64,000 nt of DNA from Nitrosomonas sp. PY1. Lineage in GTDB: Bacteria; Pseudomonadota; Gammaproteobacteria; Burkholderiales; Nitrosomonadaceae. Both the position numbers and the translations under genes were made by a program. Of this stretch, positions 55,118 through 64,000 are shown in pieces. The notes under the pieces are model-generated. The model was not told the DNA's origin. It searched no databases and saw only the letters and a list, made by a program, of their open reading frames with translations. Where the stretch lies: assembly GCF_022836435.1 (NCBI RefSeq), contig NZ_BQXC01000001.1:2058121-2122120 (forward strand), in the 5' to 3' direction. The first letter of the stretch is position 1, and each line of letters opens with the position of its first letter.

Positions 55118-56083
55118 ATGTTTGAAAGCCTAATTAAATGGTGTAGAGATTTCTTCAGTACTCAAGATACAGCAAACGCAACAAGCACGCCATCCAATCA
55201 ACCACCACAGCCGAATAATGCTCGGGCAAACTATCACACTCTAGGTGAATTCAATCTTGGACTAGGTGCGATCGGCCCAGAAAATCGCACAGATGTCGAT
55301 CAATCAGTTGTAAACGCTATGTACCAAACAATCGCTTCCGGGAAATTTAATATTCCAGTTGGCGATAGCGTACCGTCTATTTGTGTCGATGGCCGTTGCA
55401 ACAAAGATGGCAAGCGCGAAGTATCGCCTTCTGCCGCAGGAGGTACGCTTAGTATCGTATATGGTGCAGATCTCGGTGGCGCATCTACATCCAGTGACAC
55501 CAACGAAATCACGCTAGCAACAAGAATTTCGAATACGCTCAAGGAAAAGGGACACGCAATTGGTGTACATGGTGACGATCACAGTAACTGCGGTTGCGGT
55601 GCATGCGCTAAAGTAAAAAACATTTATCAACATATCGCAGAAAAAATCAACGATATCGTATCACTGACCAGTCAATATGGCATTACCCTATCGCAATCCG
55701 AGAAGGATCGTATTGTTCAACAAGCGCAAAACCGTTTAAATCAATCGAATTTTTTCGCCGAAGACAGATCCAGTGTACTGAAAAATTCTCAAGAATGCGG
55801 TTCGGTATATGAGGAGCTAGTGGGCGCACATAATGAACTTGGTATAGCATTGAATACGAAACCAGGCACCACGGTTGATCGCTCTGCAATCCGTGCACAA
55901 TATGGCCCACAGTATGACATGTTTGTTGTAGACGCATGGACTTTTGCCAATGCCGCAAAAGCAATCAACAGCAATGAAGATGCCATGGCTACAGAATTGA
56001 TCGCAAAAGCCATTACGTTGCAAAATGTAGCTACTGCCTCGGTTCTAGGACACGGATCTCTACGCATAATTCCTATCAGTTAA
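55118..56083 (+). CDS. Putative carbonic anhydrase, CDCA/beta-like metal site
   Basis: A 321-residue protein without a clear signal peptide. After a flexible Pro/Asn/Thr-rich N-terminus (residues 15-38) comes a domain with Cys89-Val-Asp-Gly-Arg93, matching the CxDxR dyad of beta-class carbonic anhydrases, and His155-Ser-Asn-Cys158 followed by GCGAC, matching HxxC(G). AAGGT-like SPSAAGGTLSIVYGADLGG and the second half (ELVGAHNELGIALNT, YDMFVVDAWTFANAAKAI) fit the cadmium carbonic anhydrase-like (zeta-related) family known from diatoms and some bacteria. It would hydrate CO2 to bicarbonate. Activity and metal are inferred. Monocistronic, with its own terminator. Confidence 0.65.
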   Translation: MFESLIKWCRDFFSTQDTANATSTPSNQPPQPNNARANYHTLGEFNLGLGAIGPENRTDVDQSVVNAMYQTIASGKFNIPVGDSVPSICVDGRCNKDGKREVSPSAAGGTLSIVYGADLGGASTSSDTNEITLATRISNTLKEKGHAIGVHGDDHSNCGCGACAKVKNIYQHIAEKINDIVSLTSQYGITLSQSEKDRIVQQAQNRLNQSNFFAEDRSSVLKNSQECGSVYEELVGAHNELGIALNTKPGTTVDRSAIRAQYGPQYDMFVVDAWTFANAAKAINSNEDAMATELIAKAITLQNVATASVLGHGSLRIIPIS

Positions 56084-56095
56084 ACAAACATCACA

Positions 56096-56118
56096 CCTCC
56101 GGCCTTGCCGGAGGCTTT
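56096..56118 (+). terminator. Terminator after the CA-like gene
   Basis: CCTCCGGC (56096-56103) and GCCGGAGG (56107-56114) form a perfect 8-bp G/C stem with a three-base loop, followed by CTTTAATATT. It lies 12 bases after the stop codon. Confidence 0.85.
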
Positions 56119-56479
56119 AATATTAAGGGTATTCGTTCTGCTATTCACAATCTTGGGCTGCGATATCACTTTCTAAACATTAATTGCTCGTAATCCTATT
56201 ACGCTGCTCGGTATGCAATTAGTATTTCTGAGGCTTTACGCGTGTGACTTCAGGTATCGAAGCAGCTTGCCTAGACATGGACAAAAGGTCAATTATGATT
56301 GGATTAATAAATCTTCCAATTAATCCAATCCGGGTTACGGTAACTGGTGAAACACTACCTTGGCTAGAAAATAAGCGTGATTTGTATTCGAGCGTCTGTA
56401 TCTGCCTGTGAGATATTGAGATGATCGTATAAGCTTAGCCAATTTGAATCAAGTTGACTGGCAGTCGATTTTAATGACA
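56119..56479. other. Intergenic stretch between the CA-like gene and the polysaccharide operon
   Basis: About 360 bases between convergent genes. It contains a 12-bp inverted repeat (56297-56308 and 56319-56330) and no recognisable reading frame. Confidence 0.5.
56297..56330. repeat. 12-bp perfect inverted repeat
   Basis: GATTGGATTAAT and ATTAATCCAATC are exact complements, separated by ten bases. They lie between convergent genes. No T tract follows, so a terminator is not certain; a protein-binding site is possible. Confidence 0.6.
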
Positions 56480-57544
56480 TCAGTACTCACCCATAATGCC
56501 CCTGAAATAAACTTCAACCGGCATTCCATTCATCAGTCGATTATTGACTTGATCTATAAACTCCATTCGTGCAAGAACTGCTGAGCGCACAGTTTCGAGT
56601 GGACCACTTTCATCAGAAGTGGATTTCTGCACAATTCCAGGAACGGCAACAACTTTTGCTTTAGCAATCTCGCCATTAGGGAATTTGACTTGAGCAACTT
56701 GCCCAATAACCGCATAATTCTGGTGTTTTGGCGGGATAAATGCATCAATATAGATCGTATCTGGAATAATAATTTCCATCAACGGCTGACCTTTTCCAAG
56801 ATATTCTTCCGGTTGTACAAATATCTCGGTCACCATTCCTGTAATGGGTGCAATAAGCTCTAGCTGCGCTACTTGATTGCGAATATTTTCAAACTCCAGC
56901 ATCCTTTGATTCATATGATTACTGATTTGGATCATTTCAGGCGCTAGATTTTGCGCACTGTGTTGTGCTTTTTGTAATAACACCGAATTTTCCAAAGCGG
57001 CTTGATATTGGCTATGAATCGTCGCTACTTCCGCCTGTGTTGCGGCACCTTGCTGGAATAAAGATTCATATTGGCGTAACCGTTTGTGCAAGAAATCTTT
57101 TCGTTCTTGCGAGAATTTCAATAATTGCAGAGAGGCCGATTGGGATTGCCCGGCATGATCCAATAACTTTTGCTTTTCTCTCGCTAATGACGCAACTTCC
57201 ATTTGCACGCGATCATGTTGTTCTTGCAACAATGTATTTGCCAATTGTGCTAATGGCTCACCCTCCATCACTCTTTGCAAGGGTTGCACCCATATCTGCT
57301 GAACATGACCATCAACCGGAGCCCGCATCACAAAATTAGTGACTCTGATCCTCCCATTCGCTTCAATCGCAACGCCATCCCAAATAATCAACCCTAATAG
57401 ATACAGCAAAGGTAGGCTAACTACCAGCACGATTAAATACCAACGCCAGGATTTACCTAAGCGCTTGGCATGACTGTATTGAACAAGCAATCCCCGATCA
57501 TGATCAGGGCTCATAGCCTCGGGCTGATTAAATCGAATTTTCAT
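56480..57544 (-). CDS. HlyD-like periplasmic adaptor (membrane fusion) protein
   Basis: A 354-residue protein. A cytoplasmic N-terminus is followed by one membrane helix (WYLIVLVVSLPLLYLLGLIIW), a biotinyl-lipoyl-like half (FVMRAPVDGHVQQIWVQPLQRVMEGEPLAQL), a long coiled coil (about residues 115-230) and the second lipoyl half plus beta barrel (IAPITGMVTEIFVQPEEYLGKGQPLMEIIIPD). This is the HlyD order, linking an inner-membrane machine to a TolC-like channel. The ATG at 57544 overlaps the end of the upstream gene. It is the last gene in the four-gene operon with a glycosyltransferase, so it probably serves polysaccharide export. Confidence 0.88.
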   Translation of the reverse strand: MKIRFNQPEAMSPDHDRGLLVQYSHAKRLGKSWRWYLIVLVVSLPLLYLLGLIIWDGVAIEANGRIRVTNFVMRAPVDGHVQQIWVQPLQRVMEGEPLAQLANTLLQEQHDRVQMEVASLAREKQKLLDHAGQSQSASLQLLKFSQERKDFLHKRLRQYESLFQQGAATQAEVATIHSQYQAALENSVLLQKAQHSAQNLAPEMIQISNHMNQRMLEFENIRNQVAQLELIAPITGMVTEIFVQPEEYLGKGQPLMEIIIPDTIYIDAFIPPKHQNYAVIGQVAQVKFPNGEIAKAKVVAVPGIVQKSTSDESGPLETVRSAVLARMEFIDQVNNRLMNGMPVEVYFRGIMGEY

Positions 57545-59708
57545 AAAGATAACTCTCAAAGTCCTGCCAAGATTGAATTACAATTCCACTAAAATTATGA
57601 TTCTGGAGCTGAGTATTAAATTGCTGCATTGCTTCATTAAAAACAGCAGGAGATTGGCGAAAGTAACTGTTCTCCGGTCCTAATACCGGTTCCAGGCTTT
57701 GCGCCAGACTAAAAAACATACTTGGATGCTTATTCATGGCATCCCTGAGCGTTTTAACAATTGCACTGGTATTTATTGAGTAATACATAATGGCAATTTC
57801 TCGAATACCTGCTTGCTTGAGCTTGCACACAATACATAAATCAAACGATAACTTGTTATGTAAGTAGCGGTGATGCATACTAACTCCGACTGGCCAAGGT
57901 GAAATAGCGGTTGCTTGACGAACGGTTTCGACAAATGCGATTAATCGTTCTTTTTCAGTTAAGGCATCCTCAAGTTGATCAGGCTCTATATCCAGATGCA
58001 GCCCATCAAAACGAATATCTGCCAATGAACCAATAATTGTCATCAACTTGTTTCGATATTTTGGCAGAATCCAACTGGGGTCACCTAGTAGCAATTCCAC
58101 CCTACTTCCATGACGATGCGCTTTTTCGATAAATTGATTAAGTTTGCCTGGATTGGCAGAAAATCTTAAAATTTGCTTTGCATTCAGCGAAATTAAAAAA
58201 CGATCAATTTTCTCAATAGATTTTTGTTGCCAAAAGTATGGACGATCGACCAAATCCTCGAAATTCCATACATAGGTCGCAAACTTAACATCCACTGATG
58301 GTGTGCTTACCGGCAAAACAAACCCGCTGAATTGTTGCACTTCGGCATTCTTTTTCTCTCCATGAAGAAACCGCTTTGCCTGATTCAATGGTTCAATGAG
58401 CGAAACAATATCTACTTCGGCATCGTGATCTTTTGATTTATTGCTCTTAGCTGGAAGTGATTCGGAGATATATTGGCGTAAGCGGATATGTATCTTCCAA
58501 TGCTCAGATTCTGCTTCGATATATTCTGTCGCAACACGGTAATAGGTATTAACCGCTTGCAGATATTTTTCCAATACATCGCCATCCATAACACGCATGC
58601 GCAGATCCCTTTCACGCATCAATTCTTTCGCCGCCGCCAGTCGAGTATGTAGGAATTTGATTTGTTGAATCGTTTGCTGATAATTATTAAAGAGTGTATG
58701 GAACTCATGCTGCAACTCTTGCTCGCGTCGAGCATATTCACTTCGGAAACTGATCAACTGACTATTCAAACGAGAACGTTCGCTTTTTCTGTAATTTACG
58801 ATTTCGAGAGGCATCCTAAAATTAACACCAACAGCTCCACCGTAGCCATATTGCATCGAGTCTGCAGAAGGATATGGAATGGCCGGACCAACAAAAGCCG
58901 TAGTGGAAACATCCGACTCGATACCTTGCCACTTCTCGGTTTCTTGGGTGTTTTGTAAATTATCAATCTGCGTTCTAATAATTCTCAAATCCGGCTGATC
59001 ATAATCCGCCGTAAAATTATTGGTAATTTCCGCCAATAAAGGTTTCACTGCCTCGAAAGGCATGACCGTCGAATTGGTTAGGTGAGATAAGCGATTCAAT
59101 GCTTGTTCCCGATTATTGCGATATTCAATCCGGGTACGTTCAGCGCGATCAAAAGCCGAAAGAAATTCCAAATAATCGGACATAAATAACAATCCAGCTT
59201 CACGCCGTTTGCTGATGGCCTTTTCAAAACCCTCATCTCGCAAACGAATGTATGCCTCGCTCAAGGCCAACATCTTCTGCGAACTCCAATACGCCGCATA
59301 ACTTTCTTCCAGAAAAGAAGCCGCTAAACGCCTACTCCATCCCAGTCGGATGTCTTCAATCTTAACTTGTGTAGCCGCATCATTAACTGCGCGCTGTTGC
59401 CTTTCAGCGCTTCCCAATAAAGGATAACGCAGTCCAATACGTGCCATGGGATCAAAAAACCGTCCGAAAGGCTCTCTTGCAAAAGGACTTTTTTGATAAC
59501 CGGCTGAAATACCGCCAAATACTTCCCAGCCTCTCTGAGCCTCTTGTGCCAACAAATTAGATTGCTGTGCTTCCAGATCTGCTTGCGCTTTCAGTACAAT
59601 CGCGGCTTGATCCAGTTTAGAACTAAAATCATTCAGCAATCTTACTTGCGCGGCCACATTGGAAGCCAATAGCGCTAGTAACAACCATAAAAGAATAAGC
59701 TTTTTCAT
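57528..59708 (-). CDS. TolC-like outer-membrane channel fused to a glycosidase-like TIM-barrel domain
   Basis: A 726-residue exported protein (signal MKKLILLWLLLALLASNVAA). Residues about 25-430 resemble the outer membrane efflux family: long amphipathic helices (QRGWEVFGGISAGYQKSP, RIGLRYPLLGSAERQQRAV, RERDLRMRVMDGDVLEKYLQAVNTYY) with a repeated half. After a linker rich in Lys/Asp, residues about 467-726 form a different domain: ATYVWNFEDLV, FDGLHLDIEP at 567-576 (a DGxxxDxE motif like GH18-type glycosidases), GVSMHHRY, IAIMYYS and IVIQSW. I know of no named family with this fusion. It overlaps the glycosyltransferase gene by four bases. Confidence 0.75.
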   Translation of the reverse strand: MKKLILLWLLLALLASNVAAQVRLLNDFSSKLDQAAIVLKAQADLEAQQSNLLAQEAQRGWEVFGGISAGYQKSPFAREPFGRFFDPMARIGLRYPLLGSAERQQRAVNDAATQVKIEDIRLGWSRRLAASFLEESYAAYWSSQKMLALSEAYIRLRDEGFEKAISKRREAGLLFMSDYLEFLSAFDRAERTRIEYRNNREQALNRLSHLTNSTVMPFEAVKPLLAEITNNFTADYDQPDLRIIRTQIDNLQNTQETEKWQGIESDVSTTAFVGPAIPYPSADSMQYGYGGAVGVNFRMPLEIVNYRKSERSRLNSQLISFRSEYARREQELQHEFHTLFNNYQQTIQQIKFLHTRLAAAKELMRERDLRMRVMDGDVLEKYLQAVNTYYRVATEYIEAESEHWKIHIRLRQYISESLPAKSNKSKDHDAEVDIVSLIEPLNQAKRFLHGEKKNAEVQQFSGFVLPVSTPSVDVKFATYVWNFEDLVDRPYFWQQKSIEKIDRFLISLNAKQILRFSANPGKLNQFIEKAHRHGSRVELLLGDPSWILPKYRNKLMTIIGSLADIRFDGLHLDIEPDQLEDALTEKERLIAFVETVRQATAISPWPVGVSMHHRYLHNKLSFDLCIVCKLKQAGIREIAIMYYSINTSAIVKTLRDAMNKHPSMFFSLAQSLEPVLGPENSYFRQSPAVFNEAMQQFNTQLQNHNFSGIVIQSWQDFESYLYENSI

Positions 59709-61030
59709 TGCTTGCCCTTTTTAAGCACCCAAAGTGGCGCCATAGCGGAATCCAAATGTCCTTTATTGAATATTTGATTGAGAATGGCCACTGCACTCCA
59801 GGTGCGCCCGATAAACTGAAAGCCTGGATAAATCAGCAAAACCCAAAAAGCTTGACAATCCTCCAGCCTCCGATCTGAAAGCAGGACCAAATAAAGGATG
59901 TATTGAATGGAAACAAGTACGGTATAAAATAAATACACCAACACCATACTCAGCAAGAAAATATGGGAAGGAAGCATGACCGCCATGTATAACGTGTAAA
60001 TAATAATAGAAAATGGCATGATGACTTGGAATAAAACGCCGTACCACAGTAGGAAAATGAAGTTTTTCCAACCCATTACAGATGCAGCAATACCGAATTT
60101 ATGTTTATTCGCATAGATGTACCAGGTATCTCCATCCCAGCGTAAACGTTGCTTGAGAAAACCCAATAAACTCTCAGGTGCATCGGTATGGGAAACAGCA
60201 TTCGGTTCAAAAGCGAATTTAAGTCTTGGATGGCGTACGTGATATTGTTTGATGCGTAAGGTCATATCGAGATCTTCAGCGGTACCTGTATTCCATCCAC
60301 CAATTTTTTGAATAAAGGATTTACGAAAAACACCAAATGCGCCGGGTACATTGTTAATCACACTGAGTTGTGCAAAACCAAGCTTGCCCACTTGCATGGT
60401 AAGCATGTACTCAAGGCTTTGTAGCCGAGTAACTAGCGTACTCTTGGCATTACGTACTCGCATCGGCCCGGTTACCGCAACCGTATCGGGATCCCCAAAA
60501 TGAGATACTGCACTACTGACCATTTGGTTATCAAACGAGGTATCTCCATCCAAGGCAAAGAAAACCTCACCTTGCGCACGACTCAACCCAGCATTAAGTG
60601 AAGAAACTCTGCCTCCCCTCTGAATTTTGGGAAGAATCGTCAAAGAGCGATTAGCATAATTTTTAACTAAAGGTAGCAATTCCTTAAGCGCCTGATAGGT
60701 CGGTAAATTCTTTTTCACACCATCAACCGCAGCTATGATTTCGATATGCCCCGGATAAATTTGCTCCAGTAAGGAAAGCACAGTATTTTGTACTGCCTTG
60801 CCTTCTGAATAGCAGGTGATCGTACAAGTTACACGTGGAGAATAAGGGGCAATCCATGGGATATCATTCTTTTTTCGATATAAATACCGTAATACCCCCA
60901 ACCAATTGACCAAGTACAGCGGTAATTCCAGGAATAATACAAAAGGAATGAGTATAAGCACGTACTGCAGCTCACTATATTGAGCAATTGTTAAGCGAAA
61001 AACATACCAAGCCTCTAAAAACATATCCAT
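59705..61030 (-). CDS. Processive membrane glycosyltransferase, family 2
   Basis: A 441-residue polysaccharide synthase-like protein. One N-terminal hydrophobic region (YVLILIPFVLFLELPLYLV) precedes the GT-A domain. Its motifs are VTCTITCYSEG, AVDGVKK, the DxD-like LDGDTSF at 160-166, TAEDLDMTLRIKQ (251-255) and KQRLRWDGDTW with the QxxRW motif (294-298) of processive synthases. Four or more helices follow. It resembles cellulose, hyaluronan and poly-GlcNAc synthases, but the product sugar cannot be read. It starts directly after the zinc-ribbon/GGDEF gene and overlaps the channel gene by four bases. Confidence 0.88.
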   Translation of the reverse strand: MDMFLEAWYVFRLTIAQYSELQYVLILIPFVLFLELPLYLVNWLGVLRYLYRKKNDIPWIAPYSPRVTCTITCYSEGKAVQNTVLSLLEQIYPGHIEIIAAVDGVKKNLPTYQALKELLPLVKNYANRSLTILPKIQRGGRVSSLNAGLSRAQGEVFFALDGDTSFDNQMVSSAVSHFGDPDTVAVTGPMRVRNAKSTLVTRLQSLEYMLTMQVGKLGFAQLSVINNVPGAFGVFRKSFIQKIGGWNTGTAEDLDMTLRIKQYHVRHPRLKFAFEPNAVSHTDAPESLLGFLKQRLRWDGDTWYIYANKHKFGIAASVMGWKNFIFLLWYGVLFQVIMPFSIIIYTLYMAVMLPSHIFLLSMVLVYLFYTVLVSIQYILYLVLLSDRRLEDCQAFWVLLIYPGFQFIGRTWSAVAILNQIFNKGHLDSAMAPLWVLKKGKQ

Positions 61031-62413
61031 TTAGAGCAACTCACCGGAAAGCCTTACCAATAGCAATTCTGCATCTTCTTGATCGGATAATTGATCCGAA
61101 CTAATACTACAAAACCGATAAATAAGTTTTTGATCACTTTCTAGCACGAGCTGATTCATGCTGGCTTCTATTCGTTTATGAAAACCAACAAGCCCCTGTT
61201 TATCGGTATTTGGCAACAACAACCACAACATATTCTCGGCTGTTCTCGTCGAAAGATCGGGTGTACGCAATAGATTTCTCAACCGCTGCGCAAATGATTC
61301 CATCACCTGCAGCAATCGAGCATGACCTATCTCATCGACCAATTCCGTAAGATTGCTAAAATAAATTCCAAACAAACTAAAATTAATATTCTTATAACGA
61401 TGAGATAGCACCATCATCCAATCCAAATCGTGGATGAACAATTCTTTGGATATAAAATCCAACTGATCGAATCCAGAAGACAAGTCAAAAACTTCCCCAC
61501 GGAATGCAATCACCCTACCCCGATCACTAAGCCGCCAATGCTGAATTTCGTTAATGACTAATTCATCGGGTTTCATAGATTTCTCACACACAGCGCAACG
61601 CACTCGAATTTCACCTTCGCTAAATGTATGATTGCAGGATTGGCACTGATAATTCTCCAAAGGCCTATCGTAGTCACTACCGATATGGCGTAAATGCGTG
61701 TTGCATTTGGGACATTTCAACATGCCTGCATGCAGGAATTTATCCTGTGCATCGACACAGCCACAGGTAAAGCAATGCAAGGAGGGTCGCAGCGCAATAT
61801 CAATTTCGAAACAATTTGGGCAAATATCGGTAAAACTTAAGTGTGCCGAACGACAATGTGTACATTCTCTTTGTCTATCAATGAGTGAAACTGGCTCCAA
61901 TATTCTGGCAGCAGCCAATTTCCTTAACCATCCAAATGAATCGCCAGTATCGTTATTAAGCGCTTCTAATAATGTATAGCGATAATATCGAGCATTCTTC
62001 CATTCATGCTGCGGCTGAATAATGAAATCAGGGCGCAACCACAAATATTTGATTAGTCGCCCTTGCGGAGTAATACAGGCTTCAGTATTCTTAAATGATT
62101 TTGTTAAACCCTCTGTATCACTTATCTTTTTCTGTAGCGCAGATGGTTCTGTTAGTTGTCCATCCAGTAATTGGCTATCTAACGCAATAGACGATTCTGT
62201 AACAAAACAAAGTGATGCAAAAACTGTATCGTCCCGGCGAATCTCATTGATTATTGTATTGACATATTGCGCATCCTCGCCATCAATAATGAAGGCCAAT
62301 GGAGCCATTTTTGTGAGTTTCCATTCAGAAAAATTGCTGTGACGTTGAATGCGATATAAATTCGCATATACATCAGGAAGCACAATATTATTAGGCGAAA
62401 AAAGTATCAGCAT
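61031..62413 (-). CDS. Zinc-ribbon protein with degenerate GGDEF-like domain
   Basis: A 460-residue cytoplasmic protein. An N-terminal region (1-170) has no recognised fold. Then come six CxxC pairs (Cys184/187, 198/201, 214/217, 234/237, 257/260, 273/276), which would make three zinc ribbons. The C-terminal third (about 300-460) resembles a GGDEF domain (FSLFGIYFSNLTELVDEIGHA, VMESFAQRLRNLLRTPD), but at the signature position it reads AENML (392-396), so diguanylate cyclase activity is unlikely. The order resembles the TackOD1-type metal-binding signalling proteins. A regulatory role in the operon it leads is inferred. Confidence 0.7.
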   Translation of the reverse strand: MLILFSPNNIVLPDVYANLYRIQRHSNFSEWKLTKMAPLAFIIDGEDAQYVNTIINEIRRDDTVFASLCFVTESSIALDSQLLDGQLTEPSALQKKISDTEGLTKSFKNTEACITPQGRLIKYLWLRPDFIIQPQHEWKNARYYRYTLLEALNNDTGDSFGWLRKLAAARILEPVSLIDRQRECTHCRSAHLSFTDICPNCFEIDIALRPSLHCFTCGCVDAQDKFLHAGMLKCPKCNTHLRHIGSDYDRPLENYQCQSCNHTFSEGEIRVRCAVCEKSMKPDELVINEIQHWRLSDRGRVIAFRGEVFDLSSGFDQLDFISKELFIHDLDWMMVLSHRYKNINFSLFGIYFSNLTELVDEIGHARLLQVMESFAQRLRNLLRTPDLSTRTAENMLWLLLPNTDKQGLVGFHKRIEASMNQLVLESDQKLIYRFCSISSDQLSDQEDAELLLVRLSGELL

Positions 62414-63067
62414 TTCTGGTGATTCCCATGAATCGATTCACATTGATTCAACCTAGTCAACGAGCACATTTTAATTTCGCTTTTCCTCTTCAAATTTTCT
62501 GCGCACTTTCGTAATATCTAAACAATTGCATTATTCATTCTCAATTTAGATAATCATCAAAGAAATAAAACAACTATTCCCCGCCTTATTACTACTTAAC
62601 AATAGGAAGTAATGAAGGATATTTACCGGATTAAGACGAGAAGAAGACACCACCACGACCTGGAGCAATGCGGACTTACAAATCAAGCTCCTGAAGCAAT
62701 CGACGAATAAAGAATCACCTGGATCATATTTCTGCTCCATCTGATTTTCTCTATGATTTGTTACAACAACAAAAAGTAACGCCACTAACAGATAGACATT
62801 TCAAAGCAACAGGTTTTGGAAAAGCACTGATACCACAAATTTTAAATACTTTTACATTGATATACTTATCAGACTGGAGAAAGCACCCACTGCAAGTATC
62901 ATTTATGGTAATGGTTGGTACGGTTATAATCGTTCGTTAGATATAGGGGCGCTCCGAGCACTTTCGTGTATCTCATGACGGCAATGAATTTGTTAACAAA
63001 CTATAGCAACTGATCAGATATTATTAGCTGCCGATAGTTTAAAACCATAAAAATAGAGAAAAATCTT
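62414..63067. other. Long intergenic stretch upstream of the polysaccharide operon
   Basis: About 650 bases between divergent genes. Small frames occur (for example 62758-62940 on plus), but none shows a ribosome site with protein-like sequence. It should hold the promoter of the four-gene operon (minus) and that of the RlpA-like gene (plus). No repeat or terminator is evident. Confidence 0.4.
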
Positions 63068-63808
63068 GTGTATAAAATTAGCTTAATGAAATTAGGGTGG
63101 TATAGTTTTGCTGCCTTTTCGATGTTTGGTTGTTCAACCGTAGTTGTACAAGAAAATGCTTCAACGGTAGAATCTTCGAGTGGAAACTCTTCAATAGTTT
63201 TCCATTCGAATACAGAATCCGAGGTTCCGGTAAATCAATCTACTTCCGAAAAAAATATCTCTACAGTTCTTCCTGCTGAGCAAAATCCACAAAAACAAAA
63301 CCCAATAACCAAGTTATCGAATGATGCATCGCAATGGCCCGTGGAAACCGGTATGGCTACATATTACGCAACGGAGATGGAGGGACGTTTAACGGCAAGT
63401 GGCGAACCATATTCACCTGAGTTGTTAACCGCAGCGCATCGCACACTACCCTTAGGAAGCATGGTGCGCATTACGAATTTAAATAATAATCAACAAGTCG
63501 TTGTGCGAATTAATGATCGTTGGGGTGGCGGAAGTGGTCGCGTGATCAATTTGTCGAAACAAGCAGCGGTCGATCTTGGATTTGGTTCTTCCGGTATGGT
63601 TTCAGTACGCCTCGATGTTGAATTATTATCTTCACAGAAAGCGATGCAACCAGCGAGCATAGCGCAACCATTACCCACACGCATTGAAGTGAGTGACCCA
63701 AAAAACCATTCAAAACTGAGTATTTGTCAAAATGAGGCAGATATACTGGGATTATCAGGGAGTTTTTATAACAATCATATCGCAGCCTGTATGATCCGGG
63801 GAAATTAG
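63068..63808 (+). CDS. rlpA: RlpA-like septal ring lipoprotein (DPBB domain)
   Basis: A 246-residue predicted lipoprotein. The signal SFAAFSMFGCS has its lipobox Cys near residue 22 from the GTG at 63068; an ATG at 63086 is an alternative start, but GAGAAA favours the GTG. A Ser/Thr/Asn-rich linker precedes the double-psi beta-barrel (WPVETGMATYYATEMEGRLTAS, AAHRTLPLGSMVRITNL, VVVRINDRWGGGSGRVINLS). RlpA proteins bind or cleave denuded peptidoglycan at the division site. The SPOR domain found in some RlpA is absent. Confidence 0.88.
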   Translation: MYKISLMKLGWYSFAAFSMFGCSTVVVQENASTVESSSGNSSIVFHSNTESEVPVNQSTSEKNISTVLPAEQNPQKQNPITKLSNDASQWPVETGMATYYATEMEGRLTASGEPYSPELLTAAHRTLPLGSMVRITNLNNNQQVVVRINDRWGGGSGRVINLSKQAAVDLGFGSSGMVSVRLDVELLSSQKAMQPASIAQPLPTRIEVSDPKNHSKLSICQNEADILGLSGSFYNNHIAACMIRGN

Positions 63809-63983
63809 CTAGCTGGGTAAACAAAATCAGGTTCTAAGGCGTTTCCGACTAAGAATCTAAGCGGATTCATTACATTCTAAAGACTCTTGTGAATTCTAAT
63901 AGGCGATGTCACTAAGTTGTCATTGGTAGATCGCAGCTTCATTTTTAGCATAGTAGCATTGACCAATCTTATAAAGGAAATTC

Positions 63984-64000
63984 ATGAATACTTCATCGCA
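63984..64000 (+). CDS. Start of a further gene, cut by the window edge
   Basis: ATG at 63984 is preceded by AAAGGAAA at good distance. Only MNTSS is readable before the edge, so no function can be suggested. Confidence 0.4.

Follow-up and report, generated by a model that had tools for sequence, protein, structure and literature searches.

A widespread four-gene cassette of Nitrosomonas sp. PY1 with the make-up of a probable cyclic di-GMP-gated, synthase-dependent exopolysaccharide system

The DNA analyzed here, called the window in the following, is a stretch of 64,000 nucleotides (nt) from the 2.85 Mb genome of Nitrosomonas sp. PY1 (assembly GCF_022836435.1; positions 2058121-2122120 of contig 1, NZ_BQXC01000001.1). 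The subject of this analysis is a compact cassette of four open reading frames (ORFs) on the minus strand, which run head to tail from 62413 to 56480. An initial annotation of the sequence had described four abutting or overlapping genes, and the ORF list places all four exactly there. There is no gap between genes 1 and 2, and genes 2 and 3 share 4 nt. Genes 3 and 4 share 32 nt if gene 4 begins at its listed TTG, and fewer if it begins at the in-frame ATG five codons further in. The encoded proteins are a TackOD1 protein with a degenerate GGDEF domain, a synthase of glycosyltransferase family 2 (GT2), a TolC-family channel with an additional C-terminal domain that models as a barrel similar to glycoside hydrolase family 18 (GH18), and an HlyD-type adaptor. 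All evidence presented is computational.

Table 1. Positions of the cassette genes, their domains and motifs, and the flanking genes within the window
Feature	Position	Strand	Size and basis
Gene 1, TackOD1-degenerate GGDEF protein	61031-62413	-	460 aa; ORF list, Pfam
TackOD1 zinc-ribbon domain (PF18551), residues 115-295	61529-62071	-	Pfam, E 3.4e-62
Degenerate GGDEF domain, residues 339-438, AENML at the GGDEF position	61100-61399	-	Pfam, E 3.4e-6 (weak)
I-site-like RxxD, R383-T-P-D386	61256-61267	-	Alignment, motif count over loci
Gene 2, processive-type GT2 synthase, PgaC/NodC/hyaluronan-synthase-like	59705-61030	-	441 aa; ORF list, Pfam, NCBIfam
QxxRW motif (QRLRW, GT2 residues 294-298)	60137-60151	-	Motif, alignment
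Gene 3, TolC-family outer-membrane channel with predicted C-terminal GH18-like domain	57528-59708	-	726 aa; ORF list, Pfam
C-terminal part, predicted (beta/alpha)8 barrel, residues 445-726	57531-58376	-	Model
Putative catalytic D-x-E (DIE) after strand 4	57984-57992	-	Alignment; GH18 chitinase DxE alignment
M-x-Y motif, end of strand 6, GH18-like	57780-57788	-	Alignment; profile comparison
Gene 4, HlyD/membrane-fusion-protein-type periplasmic adaptor	56480-57559	-	359 aa; ORF list, Pfam
rlpA-type gene, flanking, divergent	63068-63808		Pfam/NCBIfam
Cadmium carbonic anhydrase domain protein (PF18484), flanking, convergent	55118-56083	+	Pfam, E 9.6e-38

Within the genus the TolC fusion is present in 14 of 37 genomes, the own genome included. 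All 13 carriers among the 36 other genomes searched show the identical four-gene order, and the fusion was absent from all 24 genomes searched that belong to other families of this order. Among 369 class genomes, 27 gave a TackOD1 match at E up to 1e-3, and 19 of these exceeded the Pfam cut-off; in a phylum sample of 398 genomes the corresponding numbers were 18 and 15. At least 589 relatives of gene 1 emerged when the genome collection was scanned with a pattern; the best 80, which were examined, include members of Pseudomonas, Stutzerimonas, Thioalkalivibrio, Marinobacter, Vreelandella, Acidovorax and Desulfobacterales as well as a metagenome-assembled genome (MAG) of the Sedimentisphaerales. 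These 80 and 17 other loci make up the 97 TackOD1 loci (94 of them distinct) that were mapped in six frames.

At 78 of the 97 loci the genes follow the order TackOD1, GT2, TolC/barrel, HlyD; TolC and barrel are fused in 74 of these, and the barrel occurs without TolC in four. Six loci, among them L059 with broken frames, have the order barrel gene, HlyD, TackOD1, GT2 (the second order), six have TackOD1, GT2 and HlyD, three have TackOD1 and GT2 and are each cut by a contig end, and four have TackOD1 only. In one of the 13 other carriers of the genus (L075) the TolC gene and the GT2 gene are each split into two ORFs. Because the 80 loci came out on top in a scan that started from gene 1, the even sample of 369 class genomes, treated below, is the fairer test. 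The recurrence in 13/13 genus genomes and at 78/97 loci, far beyond the genus, demonstrates that the arrangement is not due to chance; conservation of the gene order was the check that the initial annotation had proposed for itself.

The linkage was also analyzed from the side of the other genes. The GT2 subfamily (E up to 1e-80) is found in 10 of the 369 class genomes and always beside a TackOD1 gene. Strong barrel matches (E < 1e-25) occur in 11 of these genomes; ten have TackOD1 as a neighbor, and the remaining one comes from a genome of 55% completeness; three weak barrel matches (3e-11 to 3e-6) come from class genomes without a TackOD1 match. All ten GT2s and most of the barrels stood in the query alignments themselves, so that the new information is only that GT2 and barrel were not found elsewhere: among the few candidates scored per class genome neither the GT2 subfamily nor, apart from the weak matches, the barrel turned up on its own. 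The full cassette is also carried by a mobilizable plasmid of Aeromonas caviae, pKAM329_3, and the three-gene core by plasmids of Plesiomonas, Photobacterium and Alisedimentitalea.

For gene 1, a zinc-ribbon/GGDEF-like protein had been suggested. Both domains were matched, TackOD1 with 209.8 bits against a Pfam cut-off of 32, but it had been missed that the catalytic motif is gone while the RxxD is kept. No GG[DE]EF motif is present at any of the 97 TackOD1 loci, and a function as diguanylate cyclase was rejected for this reason; in RefSeq, two plasmid relatives carry the label 'diguanylate cyclase'. The RxxD is retained at 91 of the 97 loci, and the six misses comprise the truncated L053, the frame-broken L059 and four loci without the R (L098, L108, L109 and L125). 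R383 and D386 lie five residues ahead of the GGDEF position, the place that the inhibitory-site RxxD occupies in diguanylate cyclases. In an alignment of 15 relatives the Cys positions of TackOD1 are invariant throughout, and beyond the zinc-ribbon positions only R59, R383 and D386 are invariant. A PDB search with a profile built from 15 diverse relatives hit GGDEF structures (best E 2.5e-14), and Foldseek matches of the AlphaFold model are GGDEF domains as well. This model has a mean predicted local distance difference test value of 87.0 and a predicted template modeling score of 0.59, so that the arrangement of the domains is uncertain. Hydrophobic segments were not found in the protein, and the Pfam family PelD_GGDEF reached 16.6 bits (E 0.0074), under its cut-off of 27.

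The definition of TackOD1, a cysteine-rich output domain, comes from archaea; some bacteria have it as well, and its function is described as obscure (PMC5847659, excerpt). PelD and BcsE are dead-GGDEF proteins of known synthase systems and bind c-di-GMP (cyclic dimeric guanosine monophosphate) at an RxxD-type site (PMC8461298, excerpt). By analogy with these two proteins, and from the residues retained, we propose that gene 1 encodes a c-di-GMP receptor or regulator without diguanylate cyclase activity. The own genome contains 22 further places with GGDEF matches, which makes c-di-GMP signaling likely in this organism. At two places, L048 (the same place as L118) and L062, TackOD1-dead-GGDEF genes were found with no GT2, HlyD or TolC recognized nearby, and the protein may therefore have other partners as well.

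The assignment of gene 2 as a processive GT2 with a QxxRW motif was confirmed (Pfam Glycos_transf_2, E 1.2e-15). The motif residues D103, D161/D163, E252/D253 and Q294/R297/W298 are invariant in all 16 aligned relatives, which by their record titles come from three phyla, include L110 (Desulfobulbaceae) and L119 (the Sedimentisphaerales MAG) and share 61 invariant columns. QxxRW is present in 90 of 93 GT2 segments; L124 and L148, both at contig ends, and the frame-broken L059 are the misses. A more distant GT2, in which LDGD replaces the AEDLD stretch, is encoded at the second-order loci. A simple scan showed three hydrophobic segments in the window GT2, and a PilZ domain was not matched by Pfam at E up to 1.

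Comparison with NCBIfam models revealed PgaC/IcaA (TIGR03937) as the best match of the window GT2, although with 139.9 bits against a cut-off of 422.3 the protein is not a PgaC. The NodC model gave 60.6 bits and the CelA model 16.3 bits, the latter against a cut-off of 699.1. Among the 16 aligned members, PgaC and NodC each match 16 and CelA matches two. Against solved structures, the GT2 profile scored about 60 bits with hyaluronan synthases and the family-2 transferase 6yv7 and about 47 bits with cellulose synthases, and the window sequence alone matched only 6yv7. These scores favor an amino-sugar polymer without proving it.

Gene 3 had been described as a TolC-like channel with an extra domain. 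The channel part was recovered as Pfam OEP (PF02321; E 2.8e-24, 86.4 bits against a cut-off of 22, in two stretches), and OEP is above the cut-off in all four first-order relatives scanned (L046, L049, L063 and L176); the N-terminus is signal-peptide-like. The identity of the extra domain had been missed: it models as a GH18-like triosephosphate isomerase (TIM) barrel with DxE and MxY motifs, in which the first 27 of residues 445-726 are disordered. No Pfam family matched this domain, GH18 included. Residues D129, E131, M197 and Y199 of the barrel domain are invariant in 17 of 17 relatives, among them those with the second gene order. In an alignment with a GH18 chitinase (E 0.018) the DxE motifs of both proteins coincide, and the first Asp of the GH18 motif DxDxE is replaced by His in the window barrel. 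A Foldseek search of the PDB yielded generic TIM barrels with a GH10 xylanase at the top, and GH18 structures rose to the top only after realignment; the realigned matches include E. coli PgaB, and the top ones include OsXIP, XIP-I and concanavalin B. The comparison with viral models gave a mixed list with several GH18 entries. The closest solved sequence relative is PDB entry 10yv, 'Putative GH97 from Cellulomonas fimi' (E 8e-5), which shares LD(I/V)EP with the barrel and whose label may not fit.

The barrel of the second-order proteins was confirmed with a profile built without these sequences (E 1e-7 to 1e-13). OEP was found in none of five such proteins and an independent TolC profile did not match them, and this variant may thus use another outer-membrane or periplasmic part. 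At L052, L054, L056, L057 and L061 the barrel is preceded in the same protein by about 450 residues that neither the OEP nor the TolC profile recognizes. At L049 (10932-13442, plus strand) the TolC-barrel protein has an extra N-terminal AMIN domain (PF11741, E 5.1e-13); AMIN-type domains bind cell-wall polymers.

Gene 4 matches HlyD_3 (E 2e-15), in agreement with the HlyD-like adaptor expected, and has one N-terminal hydrophobic segment; its nearest solved structure is EmrA (E 1.2e-7). A strict adaptor docking motif was detected in 25 of 90 HlyD segments, in some at unrelated positions. A looser pattern fitted by eye, which hit 68 of the 90, was not used, and the split between architectures reflected the strictness of the pattern.

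Using Pfam, no pump was recognized among the four genes. ATP-binding cassette (ABC) motifs within 1.5 kb were absent at 89 of the 97 loci in a simple motif test that did not screen for resistance-nodulation-division or major facilitator pumps, nor for pumps genome-wide. Two of the eight positives were checked with Pfam (L097, and the L083 gene via its L065 copy) and contain two ABC domains plus ABC_tran_Xtn, which by domain content is the ABC-F pattern and not that of an exporter. A consistent pairing of the HlyD and channel genes with a pump would have spoken against the initial annotation; what was found instead is HlyD paired with the synthase, as GT2 and HlyD are both present at 90 of the 97 loci.

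We consider it probable, at roughly 0.74, that the cassette encodes a dedicated exopolysaccharide system that depends on a synthase, is gated by c-di-GMP and has an HlyD/TolC conduit and a built-in glycosidase. The initial annotation had already suggested from the sequence that the synthase feeds such a conduit, and this suggestion is supported by the gene order and by the linkage of HlyD with GT2. In the proposed mechanism c-di-GMP would bind to the gene 1 protein at the RxxD, and the loaded protein would switch on the GT2, as PelD and BcsE do in their own systems. The membrane-bound GT2 would polymerize a nucleotide sugar, most likely UDP-N-acetylglucosamine (UDP-GlcNAc) or a close amino sugar, and would thread the chain across the inner membrane; processive GT2s both make and translocate their chain. 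HlyD would link the synthase to a TolC trimer and close off the periplasmic path, and from their linkage and the lack of a recognized pump we infer that HlyD and TolC would carry the chain over the periplasm and the outer membrane. Judged by its fold and motifs, the GH18-like domain, which would lie at the periplasmic end of TolC, may trim, release or clear the chain. The corresponding part is PgaB, PelA or BcsZ in other systems.

The same machine could export a beta-glucan, cellulose-like or of mixed linkage, as XcsAB-TolC or BgsA/BgsB do, with the barrel as an endoglucanase-type enzyme. We regard this as unlikely, because the PgaC and NodC models beat CelA both in the window GT2 (139.9 and 60.6 against 16.3 bits) and over the members (16 and 16 against 2 of 16), and because DxE, MxY and the top realigned structures of the barrel indicate GH18, whose substrate-assisted mechanism requires an N-acetyl group. 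A role of the barrel as a carbohydrate-binding or structural cap instead of an active glycosidase is less likely than not. In its favor, the first Asp of DxDxE is a His, and the top realigned matches include the plant inhibitors of the same fold, OsXIP and XIP-I, and concanavalin B, in line with a GH18 fold that includes inhibitors and lectins. Against a mere cap stand the four residues invariant in 17/17 relatives, which include the acid residue, conserved as a working enzyme would need it.

Tripartite efflux or type 1 secretion with a pump encoded elsewhere, in which GT2 and TackOD1 would be mere neighbors, appears very improbable. HlyD does score best against EmrA-type adaptors, and TolC proteins are often common to several pumps. 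However, GT2 and HlyD occur together at 90 of the 97 TackOD1 loci, even at loci without TolC, the GT2 subfamily turned up in the 369 class genomes only beside TackOD1, and both adjacent ABC genes that were checked show the ABC-F pattern. Efflux was therefore rejected as the principal explanation: HlyD remains linked to GT2 and TackOD1, and next to them no pump was recognized.

Synthase-dependent export through HlyD and TolC has a precedent in XcsAB-TolC, and bgsBA encodes an HlyD-like BgsB, so the route itself is not a new idea. XcsAB-TolC was proposed for cellulose of Thermosynechococcus (Maeda et al. 2018, via PMC12430437); a 2025 review notes that the model is without validation and finds it puzzling because no single operon contains its components (PMC12430437). 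The cassette shares with XcsA-XcsB-TolC an inner-membrane GT2, an HlyD-like adaptor (XcsB there), TolC, a proposed conduit without a pump and a glycosidase in the set (the endoglucanase XcsC there, the putative one of the barrel here). In T. vulcanus the genes lie scattered and TolC has a gene of its own, in contrast to the single operon described here, in which TolC and a GH18-like domain are fused; moreover, PilZ is part of the synthase itself there, whereas here a separate dead-GGDEF protein would read c-di-GMP (PMC12430437, excerpt).

With the Pel system the cassette has in common a dead GGDEF protein with RxxD, as PelD is the post-translational c-di-GMP receptor for the glycosyltransferase. 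Unlike the gene 1 protein, which has TackOD1 and lacks hydrophobic segments, PelD sits in the membrane and contains a GAF domain, and the polymerase PelF belongs to GT4 and not to GT2 (PMC8461298, excerpt). The Bgs system resembles the cassette in the combination of a GT2 with the HlyD-like BgsB and in post-translational activation by c-di-GMP, which is proposed for the cassette. It differs in that the C-terminal domain of BgsA itself binds c-di-GMP and in that the operon bgsBA, as far as the excerpt of the source describes it, is bicistronic, without TolC, a TackOD1 protein or a glycosidase (PMC9495663). The expectation that a dedicated channel and regulator would set this locus apart from BgsA/BgsB thus proved correct. 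The Pga system, which produces poly-N-acetylglucosamine, is similar in that PgaC is the closest NCBIfam model of the GT2 and in that the barrel resembles E. coli PgaB. Unlike PgaABCD, the four genes contain no PgaA-type porin, PgaD or deacetylase according to Pfam.

Searches of the open-licence literature yielded no dedicated operon that combines a TolC-barrel fusion with a dead-GGDEF receptor of the TackOD1 type, although subscription papers or preprints may describe it. The cassette is a widespread, apparently unnamed variant of synthase-dependent exopolysaccharide systems, for which the polymer and the c-di-GMP step are deduced. A bolder version, to which we give even odds, is a further, still unnamed kind of polysaccharide machine, gated by c-di-GMP and distributed among several bacterial phyla and on plasmids: a TolC of the drug-pump type would have been recruited to export the polymer, a GlcNAc-specific hydrolase at the periplasmic mouth of this channel would control chain length or release inside the conduit, and TackOD1 would be the module that couples the c-di-GMP receptor to the synthase.

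If the proposed system is correct, many environmental bacteria, including pseudomonads, halomonads, sulfur oxidizers, sulfate reducers and nitrifiers, possess a biofilm-polymer machine that is masked by labels like 'diguanylate cyclase', 'TolC family protein' and 'HlyD family efflux transporter'. The cassette would then offer a one-operon test system for the proposed synthase-HlyD-TolC route, TackOD1 would receive its first function, and Pfam would gain an unlisted GH18-like domain fused to an outer-membrane channel. In the case of Nitrosomonas, a bearing on biofilm or floc formation in wastewater treatment is conceivable.

Some loci without the complete cassette contain additional genes. On the plasmid of the alphaproteobacterium Alisedimentitalea (L177, 6602-9245 and 10276-11286) the TackOD1-type gene is seemingly shortened to 312 aa and followed by a 113-aa gene, which may mean a split regulator; further downstream lie the genes for GT2, HlyD and a UDP-glucose 4-epimerase. 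A GH16 glycosidase gene (L051, 12471-13382, plus strand) follows HlyD in a cassette without TolC-barrel and perhaps indicates another polymer or editing enzyme. At L058 (12182-14401) and L060 (12027-14072) the three-gene core is followed by a protein of the PAS-GGDEF-EAL type, as read from the translations, which is a possible source or sink of c-di-GMP for the system.

Around the operon (55900-64000) neither a c-di-GMP riboswitch nor another known RNA was matched in Rfam at the gathering threshold. The promoter scan gave 19 sites compared with 18.2 in shuffled sequences and the terminator scan seven compared with 6.0; as these counts are barely above the shuffles, no promoter or terminator is claimed. 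Between the convergent genes lies a hairpin (56095-56115), which is no more than suggestive. The convergent neighbor of the cassette encodes a protein with a cadmium carbonic anhydrase domain, a family best known from diatoms and here represented by a bacterial protein of a nitrifier.

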